Source: Clostridia bacterium (GTDB lineage: Bacteria > Bacillota > Clostridia > Oscillospirales > CAG-272). Taken from it: a DNA stretch of 56,795 nucleotides. The translations under genes and the position numbers were made by a program. Positions 1 to 791 of the stretch are shown here, piece after piece (positions within the stretch are counted from its first letter, which is position 1; every line of letters starts with the position of its first letter). Where the stretch lies: positions 1 to 56,795 of the forward strand of contig JAFTJE010000010.1 in assembly GCA_017456545.1 (NCBI GenBank), in the 5' to 3' direction. A model generated the notes under the pieces. That model did not search any database. It saw only the letters and a list, made by a program, of their open reading frames with translations, and was not told the origin of the DNA.

Positions 1-327
1 AATGCAGGAGCTTGTGAGCAATCTTTTTATTCTGCCACAGAGGTTTCTTAATTTTTTAAATGTTATTTCATCAATATCTTCGGTAGAAAAGAGAAGCTTT
101 AACCAACTTTCGGTTTCGGCACATTCCTTTCGTGCTATTTCAAATTTAGAATGCATATCTGCAAGACTTTGAGGGTATTGTGCCTCTGTAATATTAGCAA
201 ATACACTTGAGGATGACTTTTTTATTTGAAAAACTACATTTGAATCAAATTTATTGCCCTTGCAGAGCGTAGCAATACAAACAGCTAATTCCTCACTATA
301 TTCTAAAAGTAGATTTCTTTTAGACAT
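1..327 (-). CDS. four-helix-bundle protein (S23/Avd-like), C-terminus cut by window edge
   Basis: Reading the minus strand from the ATG at 327 gives 109 open codons running off the left edge, starting MSKRNLLLEYSEELAVCIAT. Residues about 33-62 match the conserved core of the 23S rRNA intervening-sequence (IVS) / TIGR02436 four-helix-bundle family: a Ser-rich stretch, 'FANITEAQ', then 'EIARKECAETESWLKLL'. The family is usually about 115-125 aa, so only a few residues should be missing. Related proteins are found inside 23S rRNA IVS elements and as the Avd accessory factor of diversity-generating retroelements, where they bind nucleic acid or RNP. No biochemical role is established for this branch. 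The RBS GGAGG (332-336) is well placed. The hairpin array begins only 14 bp upstream of the start codon, so it lies in the gene's 5' leader or promoter. A retroelement beyond the left edge cannot be excluded. Confidence 0.75.
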   Translation of the reverse strand, partial: MSKRNLLLEYSEELAVCIATLCKGNKFDSNVVFQIKKSSSSVFANITEAQYPQSLADMHSKFEIARKECAETESWLKLLFSTEDIDEITFKKLRNLCGRIKRLLTSSCI

Positions 328-341
328 AACCAACCTCCAAT

Positions 342-537
342 CAATGCAAAGCATTGTATGTAATCACGCATAGCGTGTATGGAATTTGCAACCTGTTGCA
401 GTATGGAATTGACACACAGTGTCGTATGGAATCAAACTGAAGTACATCCTATACAATCTAACGATTGATGCCATACAATCGCATAGCGACTGATTCCATG
501 CACCTAACGGTGATTCCATACCAAACCTTCAGTTTGG
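342..537. repeat. array of eight short hairpins with conserved 8-nt linkers, arranged as an inverted pair
   Basis: Seen directly. Left half: hairpins at 342-356, 365-377, 387-400 and 411-423, each followed by TATGTAAT or (G)TATGGAAT. Right half: hairpins at 454-467, 476-492, 501-512 and 521-537, with the first three followed by ATGCCATA, ATTCCATG and ATTCCATA, the reverse complement of the left linker. Stem sequences differ between units (CAATGC, CACGC, TGCAAC, GACAC, CAATC, TCGC, CACC, CCAAAC) while linkers are kept. A central arm CAAACTGAAG (433-442) can also pair with CTTCAGTTTG (527-536). The block therefore can fold either as separate hairpins or as a long cruciform. It sits between the four-helix-bundle start codon and the tRNA-Glu terminator. 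I do not recognise it as a named element. Confidence 0.85.
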
Positions 538-548
538 ATAAATAAAAA

Positions 549-569
549 AGTCGAACCAAAGTTCGACTT
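549..569 (-). terminator. Rho-independent terminator of the tRNA-Met/tRNA-Glu transcript
   Basis: An 8-bp stem (AGTCGAAC / GTTCGACT) with a 4-nt loop is followed on the minus strand by a T-run (TTTTTTATT). It starts about 10 nt past the CCA end of tRNA-Glu. Confidence 0.85.
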
Positions 570-578
570 ATTTTATTT

Positions 579-653
579 TGGTGACCCGTACGGGAATCGA
601 ACCCATGTTACAGCCGTGAAAGGGCCGTGTCTTAACCGCTTGACCAACGGGCC
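579..653 (-). tRNA. tRNA-Glu (UUC)
   Basis: The minus strand folds as a 75-nt tRNA with an encoded CCA. The acceptor arms are GGCCCGT / ACGGGTC, the T-loop is GGTTCGATTCC-like, and the anticodon loop CTTTCAC gives anticodon TTC. It is transcribed after tRNA-Met with only 5 nt between them. Confidence 0.95.
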
Positions 654-658
654 GTTTA

Positions 659-734
659 TGGTGGCGGAAATGGGATTTGAACCTATGACCTGCCGGGTAT
701 GAACCGGATGCTCTAGCCTCTGAGCTATTCCGCC
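659..734 (-). tRNA. tRNA-Met (CAU), elongator type
   Basis: This is a 76-nt minus-strand tRNA with encoded CCA. The acceptor is GGCGGAA paired with TTCCGCC, and the anticodon loop TTCATAC gives CAT. The normal first pair and the absence of three GC pairs next to the anticodon loop point to elongator Met rather than initiator. A lysidine-modified tRNA-Ile with CAT cannot be ruled out by eye. Confidence 0.9.
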
Positions 735-762: not shown

Positions 763-791
763 ATTATATCACAAGTTATTTTTGTTGTCAA
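763..791 (-). promoter_or_regulatory. SigA promoter for the tRNA-Met/Glu operon
   Basis: On the minus strand, consensus TTGACA (786-791) is followed by a 17-bp spacer and TATAAT (763-768), ending about 28 bp before the tRNA-Met gene. Confidence 0.85.

Follow-up and report, generated by a model that had tools for sequence, protein, structure and literature searches.

Between a tRNA operon and the gene of an S23-type four-helix-bundle protein, the window (the whole stretch analysed, 56,795 nucleotides of contig JAFTJE010000010.1 from a Clostridia bacterium) carries an array of eight hairpins whose 8-nt linker inverts half-way, and among related arrays the type of linker is inherited together with the clade of the S23 protein. 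We tentatively read the array as one copy of a REP-like family of tagged palindromes with S23 as the cognate partner that would read the linker, a reading to which we give slightly less than an even chance. Doubt concerns mostly the choice between DNA and RNA and the role of S23. Arrays behind the tRNA genes of gut and rumen Clostridia would represent a little-known partnership of repeat and protein that links S23 proteins with Gut-1, listed in 2010 without a partner, and provides a 6–9-base candidate recognition sequence for every S23 clade. It is a repeat system without a reverse transcriptase (RT) match and often without a Y1 transposase match.

The array occupies positions 342–537, with the minus strand as sense strand, and its hairpins have perfect stems of at least 4–5 bp and loops of 3–5. 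On the plus strand, linkers of the gene-proximal half read TATGTAAT (357–364) and TATGGAAT (378–385, 402–409 and 425–432), and those of the tRNA-proximal half ATCCTATA (446–453), ATGCCATA (468–475), ATTCCATG (493–500) and ATTCCATA (513–520); the linker is TATGGAAT-like in one half and its reverse complement in the other. Along the minus strand the order is promoter-like site, tRNA-Met, tRNA-Glu, terminator, hairpin X, three hairpins, middle arm, four hairpins, GGAGG and S23 gene, with 14 nt between the last hairpin (342–356) and the start codon (327–325). The features, with linkers given in the sense direction, are as follows.

1..327, minus strand: S23/four-helix-bundle gene (profile matches PF05635, TIGR02436), start codon 327–325, cut by the contig end
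334..338, minus strand: GGAGG, resembling a ribosome-binding site and immediately following hairpin h7 (sequence)
342..356, minus strand: hairpin h7 CAATGCTTTGCATTG, nearest the S23 gene (hairpin scan; compensated change visible in the aligned locus L012)
357..364, minus strand: right-half linker R4 ATTACATA (sequence)
365..377, minus strand: hairpin h6 CACGCTATGCGTG (double-sided changes in relatives)
378..385, minus strand: right-half linker R3 ATTCCATA (sequence)
387..400, minus strand: hairpin h5 TGCAACAGGTTGCA (hairpin scan and alignment)
402..409, minus strand: right-half linker R2 ATTCCATA (sequence)
411..423, minus strand: hairpin h4 GACACTGTGTGTC (double-sided changes in relatives)
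425..432, minus strand: right-half linker R1 ATTCCATA (sequence)
433..443, minus strand: middle arm ACTTCAGTTTG, complementary to the 5' arm of the first hairpin X (long-range pairing covaries)
446..453, minus strand: degenerate left linker TATAGGAT (sequence)
454..467, minus strand: hairpin h3 CAATCGTTAGATTG (hairpin scan and alignment)
468..475, minus strand: left-half linker L3 TATGGCAT (sequence)
476..492, minus strand: hairpin h2 CAGTCGCTATGCGATTG, with one G.T pair (hairpin scan)
493..500, minus strand: left-half linker L2 CATGGAAT (sequence)
501..512, minus strand: hairpin h1 CACCGTTAGGTG (hairpin scan)
513..520, minus strand: left-half linker L1 TATGGAAT (sequence)
521..537, minus strand: first hairpin X CCAAACTGAAGGTTTGG, alternative partner 433–443 (hairpin scan and alignment)
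540..578, minus strand: terminator-like stem-loop between tRNA-Glu and array, stem 548–569, matched on both strands (terminator search)
579..653, minus strand: tRNA-Glu (TTC), with the array anchored behind its 3' end (tRNA search)
659..734, minus strand: tRNA-Met (CAT), first gene of the operon (tRNA search)
763..791, minus strand: promoter-like site before the tRNAs, TTGACA-17-TATAAT with TG, 12/12, sigma-70-type (promoter scan)

Hairpin density sets the array apart from the rest of the contig. Eight hairpins fall within 203 bases, against at most four in any of 550 windows of equal length elsewhere and never more than four in 2000 mononucleotide shuffles, which rules out chance or ordinary intergenic hairpins as its origin. 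Positions 1–560 folded as RNA with a z of –3.48 relative to 100 dinucleotide-preserving shuffles. An Rfam search of the window array matched no known RNA family, and Gut-1 was absent even at E up to 1. No family of direct repeats reaching 12 nt was found in the array, and its constant element measures 8 nt and inverts half-way; the earlier statement that it is not a CRISPR is borne out. Neither UUCG nor GNRA tetraloops characterize the hairpins: across 386 of them, spurious ones included, UUCG occurred 0 times and GNRA 18 times, versus 11 for the reverse complement.

S23 proteins occur in 23S rRNA intervening sequences. The window protein matched PF05635 (E 1.9e-17; 63.9 bits versus a curated cut-off of 33.8) and TIGR02436, 'four helix bundle protein' (E 3.8e-18), and is readable for 109 residues before running off the contig at base 1; full-length relatives have about 118. 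An AlphaFold model of one of these (L008) consists of four helices with a mean pLDDT of 95.3. The only PDB sequence match was 2rld (E 5.9e-12), an entry listed with five chains. According to PMC4990558, an S23-family protein of Xanthomonas is a pentamer and S23 proteins are still described as being without known function. PADLOC models gave 0 antiphage defence families for the window protein. A type III toxin-antitoxin system, in which RNA repeats precede a ToxN-like nuclease, was also rejected, as the protein matches S23 profiles and no nuclease profile.

A scan with one genome per species yielded 48 loci with relatives of the window S23 protein, and inspection of the 420–440 bases upstream of each (27 plus 21 loci), aided by the linker pattern, revealed an array or a visible part of one beside 47. 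The single relative without an array (L051) has a protein match that begins at residue 28; among the 47, one (L014) has the left half only, one (L018) is cut by its contig, and two (L045, L048) carry another linker. Between loci the stems differ and the linkers are nearly constant. Double-sided changes that keep pairing occur at 18 of 40 consensus pairs, counted in 12 aligned of 46 arrays of the window (TATG) type. Moreover, the X arm pairs with the middle arm over at least seven contiguous bases in 37 of 40 parsed arrays (6 of the 46 were unparsed), compared with 30% when X is set against the middle of another array and 2.6% with shuffled middles. Hairpin X therefore has two possible partners, its adjoining arm or one about 80 bases on. 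The original prediction of eight hairpins with variable stems and an 8-nt linker inverting between the halves, 14 bp from an S23-type gene, is confirmed by sequence, hairpin counts and both protein profiles, and the stem compensation it had noted is seen as covariation.

About ten linker types were distinguished, some one or two bases apart, with the linker on the left of an array and its reverse complement on the right: TATGGAAT/TATGTAAT, GTGAAAT, GTGATAT, GTGATG, TGATGT, ATGAAG, GTGAAG, GCTAAAT, TGAATT, TATATCATC and further ones such as ATATCGA. Types were identified by eye and by a de novo search for words that recur in the left part of an array and reappear as reverse complement in the right part; since that search accepts this layout only, the layout is partly by construction there, whereas for the TATG type it rests on reading and on a pattern search that sought both orientations independently. 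Mapped on a tree of 108 S23 proteins (2 of 110 were too short; few columns) in 11 groups, ten types plus 'none found', the labels required 16 changes, where the least possible is 10; shuffled labels averaged 52.8, and 0 of 200 shuffles were as low. The 45 TATG rows form one clade (100/100); these rows were gathered by similarity to the window protein, and rows of the other clade by Pfam search rather than by linker. Sixteen labels were set by eye, all rows from L008 to L055 other than L045 and L048 received the TATG label jointly, and two rows (L053, L055) are out of frame with very long branches. If the protein recognised the linker, linker type should follow the S23 clade, as it does, and from this co-inheritance of sequences we infer that S23 may bind its tag.

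In 37 of the 108 rows of the tree no array was recognised, and these include the best Pfam scorers (L193–L208); four-word hits of L193 and L205 in the de novo search are unlike arrays, and some rows of this group, such as L073, L210, L219, L221, L062 and L067, lie inside array-bearing clades and may hold arrays missed by the pattern or cut by a contig end. Of the two observations named earlier as counting against the prediction, a lack of stem covariation did not materialise, and absence of the array beside other family members applies to the wider family and not to the window clade. One genome can hold several S23 genes with different tags. As a separate observation, four S23 genes without palindromic arrays (L001, in C5 of the window's own genome; L002, in C24; L061; L268) have different short repeated words at their flanks, TGCAGAATGCAGAG, GAGAAAAGTGAAGAGTGAAAAG and TGCAAAATTCA.

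The position of the window array behind a tRNA-Met/tRNA-Glu operon with its terminator is a context that the earlier description missed. Between positions 300 and 900, site 763–791 is the sole promoter-like site on the minus strand; none was found between array and S23 gene, so the window array is probably transcribed. In other lineages, a promoter-like site with a score of at least 11 stands between array and S23 gene in 18 of 72 cases, versus 0.3% of shuffles, which suggests that the array need not be part of the S23 message there, while in the window clade it probably is. These intervening sites, along with many arrays that have no adjoining S23 gene, indicate that the array is not simply the leader of that gene, as had been proposed. 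Divergent from the tRNA operon, at 953–2283, lie adjacent open reading frames that resemble by eye thymidylate synthase and dihydrofolate reductase.

Placement behind stable-RNA genes is common. With all linker types taken together, the first linker lies no more than 110 nt from a tRNA or tmRNA 3' end in 55 of 68 parsed S23-linked arrays, a count that leaves out five unlabelled arrays (L005, L018, L050, L070, L076) and keeps near-identical rows (e.g. L024/L025) unmerged. These sites bear 24 labels, 21 tRNA anticodons and three tmRNAs. By comparison, a tRNA lies within 450 nt of 4 of the 37 S23 genes without a recognised array, five of which have short upstream stretches. The distance from tRNA to first linker is near-fixed, mostly 46–70 nt, and a terminator-like hairpin separates the two. 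Among 17 Gut-1 loci taken regardless of their flanks, nine stand immediately after a tRNA, another forms the second member of a tandem pair that follows tRNA-Tyr, and the remainder lie behind other hairpins or a T run; an S23 gene directly follows one of the 17 (L128).

Gut-1 (RF01706), an Rfam orphan, corresponds to one of the linker types, with membership defined by a covariance-model score of at least 50 bits. Like the arrays, it has three hairpins with constant linkers (GUGAAAU), and its model hits both halves of an own-genome paralogue (L003) situated behind tRNA-Trp and before an S23 gene, with 65.3 bits for the left half and, on the opposite strand, 51.5 bits for the right. The window array differs in its linker and is not matched by the model, and Gut-1 covers one half only. 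Gut-1 was listed in 2010 as a noncoding RNA of the human gut only, rated 'Y' as RNA and 'n' as cis-regulatory, and is given no partner protein or tRNA link in the available portion of the main text (PMC2864571). At E 0.001, Gut-1 matches were present in 36 of 196 genomes of the class (23 above the Rfam cut-off), with 12 in the window's own genome and, in others, as many as 22, the maximum number of candidates scored per genome; these figures count matches rather than arrays, and the two halves of a single array can each be hit, on opposite strands. S23 was found in 30 of the 36 Gut-1 genomes versus 34 of the 160 others (Fisher p 3.9e-12, uncorrected for shared ancestry; the two lists were joined by genome handle on the assumption of the same draw of 196 genomes), and in seven genomes Gut-1 and then S23 are, by coordinates, neighbours on the same strand. 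Three genomes (G000, G098, G179) contain S23 with a recognised Gut-1 array. In two Gut-1-rich genomes, G191 and G143, none of the S23 matches examined (7 of 7 and 3 of 4) had one, which weighs against strict dependence on the cognate protein; copies can seemingly persist without one. Among the top-ranked literature matches, a set largely outside subscription papers and preprints, no publication connected S23 proteins to hairpin arrays, or any protein to Gut-1.

Repeated copies were read in G191, where 17 Gut-1-type copies have no adjoining S23 gene. Pairwise identity is 0.57–0.65 at the two inner ends of the block versus 0.28–0.30 outside it (120 pairs), so that these S23-less copies are sharp-ended units of about 180 bp. 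Three terminator sequences recur behind different genes among the 17, and hence the terminator may travel with the element; the copy finder demanded a T run before the array, which is therefore partly by construction there. Copies behind different tRNAs are up to 94% identical over about 200 bases. A triple pattern of TATGNNAT was found in 15 of 38 relatives, including matches that resemble chance hits (G008, G039) or another linker type (G018, G036, part of G043). It occurs 18 times in G006 and 14 times in G012 (overlaps counted), versus 2 and 1 for a reversed control, and in both genomes many of the matches are half arrays next to gene ends with neither a tRNA nor S23, resembling REP clusters. 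Of 30 tRNA-Glu loci fetched from the window's genus, 24 were readable: four have TATG-type arrays (the window included), four ATGAAG-type arrays with their own S23, and 16 neither. Some S23 genes at this site are cut or broken. An exact empty site with both flanks was found at none of tRNA-Glu, tRNA-Lys (G191/G143) or rpsI, where comparisons are one-sided. Transposition as such is thus conjectural, and islands at tRNA ends could also carry such modules.

Several observations concern the units and their ends. S23-less units often tail off in ...TTGCCA or ...TTCCA, followed by another terminator (L125, L123, L124, L256), and one locus (L125, G191 C16) has two whole units in tandem behind tRNA-Tyr, as if joined at CCA. 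At the tRNA-Glu site, a stretch ending ACAAGCACACGCCACAGTG(C/T)CA is conserved behind the S23 terminator (L008, L010, L011, L012, L169, L182, L167, L170), and the sequence beyond it differs between genomes. The locus tail (…GTGCCA) was considered as the element's own 3' end and dropped, being common to two S23 types and standing alone in L170. In L117 (own genome, C35) and L118 (C8), a Gut-1 array lies within a small element with terminal inverted repeats GTAGTGCC.TTAAGGACA / CTGTCCTTTAGAGTACA; L118 has an apparent 9-bp target duplication, CCCCTTATG, and the terminal-repeat end also occurs near the S23 gene of L002.

Dispersed copies of this kind recall REP/REPIN elements and their RAYT proteins, which comprise tagged palindromes in several families per genome, a nearby cognate gene, scattered copies and units in opposite orientation (PMC3116915, PMC3733652). 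The arrays are likewise tagged palindromes with a protein gene nearby and intergenic copies dispersed behind genes. In REP/REPIN, however, the tag sits at one end of a conserved palindrome, whereas here it lies between variable palindromes and the partner is S23, not Y1. The earlier contention that the array is the reverse of REP repeats was too strong, as scattered S23-less copies behave much like REP/REPIN. 23S rRNA intervening sequences share the S23 family, lodgement in a stable-RNA transcription unit and short repeats before the open reading frame, such as the heptamers GACAGAT in Coxiella (PMC4990558); the window locus differs in lying behind tRNA-Glu, in its hairpin array and in having no single long terminal stem around the open reading frame.

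Co-inheritance of protein clade and tag, hairpins kept as shapes and a site behind gene-end hairpins together fit a REP-like system with S23. We envisage that the constant linker would serve as a tag read by the cognate S23 protein, with the variable hairpins holding the tags apart and exposing them. The tag runs in opposite directions in the two halves of a full array, which makes both strands look alike. The element would settle behind gene-end stem-loops, often the terminators of tRNA or tmRNA genes, where little harm is done. Host DNA replication or repair, working on the folded DNA, could copy it to further sites of this kind, either alone or along with the S23 gene. S23 might act as guide or chaperone of this copying; that it helps copies spread is an additional supposition. 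One-sided half arrays count against the reading.

Whether the arrays act as DNA or RNA was approached through pairing statistics. Counting the best hairpin at each place (81 Gut-1-type and 94 window-type hairpins) gave 984 Watson-Crick pairs, 7 G.T, 0 A.C and 2 other. tRNAs of the same loci had 92 G.T and 9 A.C beside 1158, and terminator-like hairpins 32 G.T and 5 A.C beside 1464 (32 of 1514 pairs). With fixed boundaries (sums of a position table) the count was 20 G.T and 21 A.C beside 689, and 4 and 11 beside 352 for pooled Gut-1 units. The rarity of G.T favours folded DNA, or some process by which palindromes are perfected, and so do the counts with fixed boundaries, while the best-hairpin ratio of G.T to A.C, 7:0, leans to the sense strand, as RNA would. 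DNA is our tentatively inferred working form of the array. The array acting instead as RNA, a structured transcript made by read-through from the tRNA promoter, we consider unlikely yet worth serious attention; it would bind S23 as a ribonucleoprotein or control S23 synthesis through a switch between hairpin X and the long-range stem of X with the middle arm. Such a role accords with the consensus fold and its covariation, the z of –3.48, the conserved competing pairings of X, the 7:0 ratio and, in the window clade, the word resembling a ribosome-binding site that comes straight after the last hairpin, and Gut-1 is treated as RNA by Rfam and rated so in PMC2864571. It is at odds with the scarcity of G.T (7 of 991 Watson-Crick plus G.T pairs, versus 92 of 1272 in tRNAs), fixed-boundary counts without G.T bias (20:21 and 4:11), the fact that a single array can match the Gut-1 model on either strand, promoter-like sites that follow the array in several lineages and scattered one-sided half arrays without S23.

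Three other explanations deserve weighing against the REP-like reading. Gyrase or IHF act at BIMEs, and palindromes can extrude under supercoiling; the arrays might accordingly serve the host as insulators or supercoil sinks behind heavily transcribed stable-RNA genes, with S23 as a nucleoid-type coat. The tendency of arrays to lie 3' of tRNA, tmRNA, rpsI and similar genes would suit this, as would conservation within the S23 clade (mean column identity 74%, 17 chosen rows). Against it, relatives differ at one and the same site in whether an array is there and of which type, a genome can have several S23 genes with unlike tags, and 13 of 57 relatives lack an S23 match; we judge a host function improbable. 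We think it less probable still that array and S23 are cargo or remnants of tyrosine-recombinase islands that use tRNA 3' ends as attachment sites. tRNA 3'-end fragments do occur downstream in L012 and L016/L165, downstream sequence varies between relatives, and S23 relatives are found in four virus-labelled records, three of which were inspected and all had arrays; yet arrays keep a near-fixed distance from an intact tRNA (mostly 46–70 nt to the first linker), occur at non-tRNA hairpins too, and have sharp-ended S23-less copies of about 180 bp. In the three inspected records, whose viral status is the record label, S23 accompanies a GTGATAT array behind tRNA-Arg (L264, a phage record) or Gut-1-type linkers (L265, a phage record, and L262 from IMG/VR, with two tandem arrays).

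Avd belongs to the S23-like fold, and the stem-loop targets of group IIC introns are terminators. A non-autonomous retroelement, with S23 acting as Avd and a reverse transcriptase supplied in trans copying the element into hairpin targets, would draw on this relation and on the use of stem-loops by diversity-generating retroelements (DGRs), whose homing needs a hairpin or cruciform with free stem sequence, and by group IIC introns, which target stem-loop motifs (PMC3240598). DGRs thus resemble the system in having a target hairpin of free stem sequence, but the window's genome has no RT match. Indeed, RVT_1 was matched in 0 of 11 array-bearing genomes (assemblies 61–98% complete; in the own genome the search covers the assembled nine tenths), versus 3 of 14 control genomes. 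This largely refutes the retroelement explanation in those genomes, leaving it highly improbable, and the DGR link originally drawn for the window S23 locus fails with it. Five of the 11 carriers (G003, G011, G020, G027, G143) had no Y1_Tnp match, including one that is 98% complete with 21 Gut-1 matches (G143), and the own genome has two adjoining Y1 matches with stops, on another contig. Neither a DGR or group II engine nor a RAYT engine is therefore common to the carriers; a requirement for Y1/RAYT was rejected on this count, the neighbour of the array being S23.

A bolder extension of the REP-like reading, which we regard as speculative and on balance unlikely, is an enzyme-less mobile system. 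S23 rings would read a lineage tag on folded DNA, host replication or repair would lay copies behind the gene-end hairpins of stable RNAs, the landing hairpin would be the target's end copied backwards, and Gut-1 would be one branch of it, as perhaps would the S23 genes found in 23S rRNA intervening sequences.

At non-tRNA sites the hairpin before the array can equal an inverted copy of the 3' end of the upstream gene (L286/L116 in C14 of the own genome, L287, L288, L119, L271, L285); in L285 the arms are 17 bp and perfect. At rpsI (28 loci fetched), an inverted copy was present at 3 of 25 readable orthologous loci, each then followed by an array, two of Gut-1 type in close relatives and one of another linker type by eye. 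Such inverted copies, at rpsI and elsewhere, suggest fold-back copying. Among the 22 other readable rpsI loci, an exact copy of its first 11 bases was found in none.
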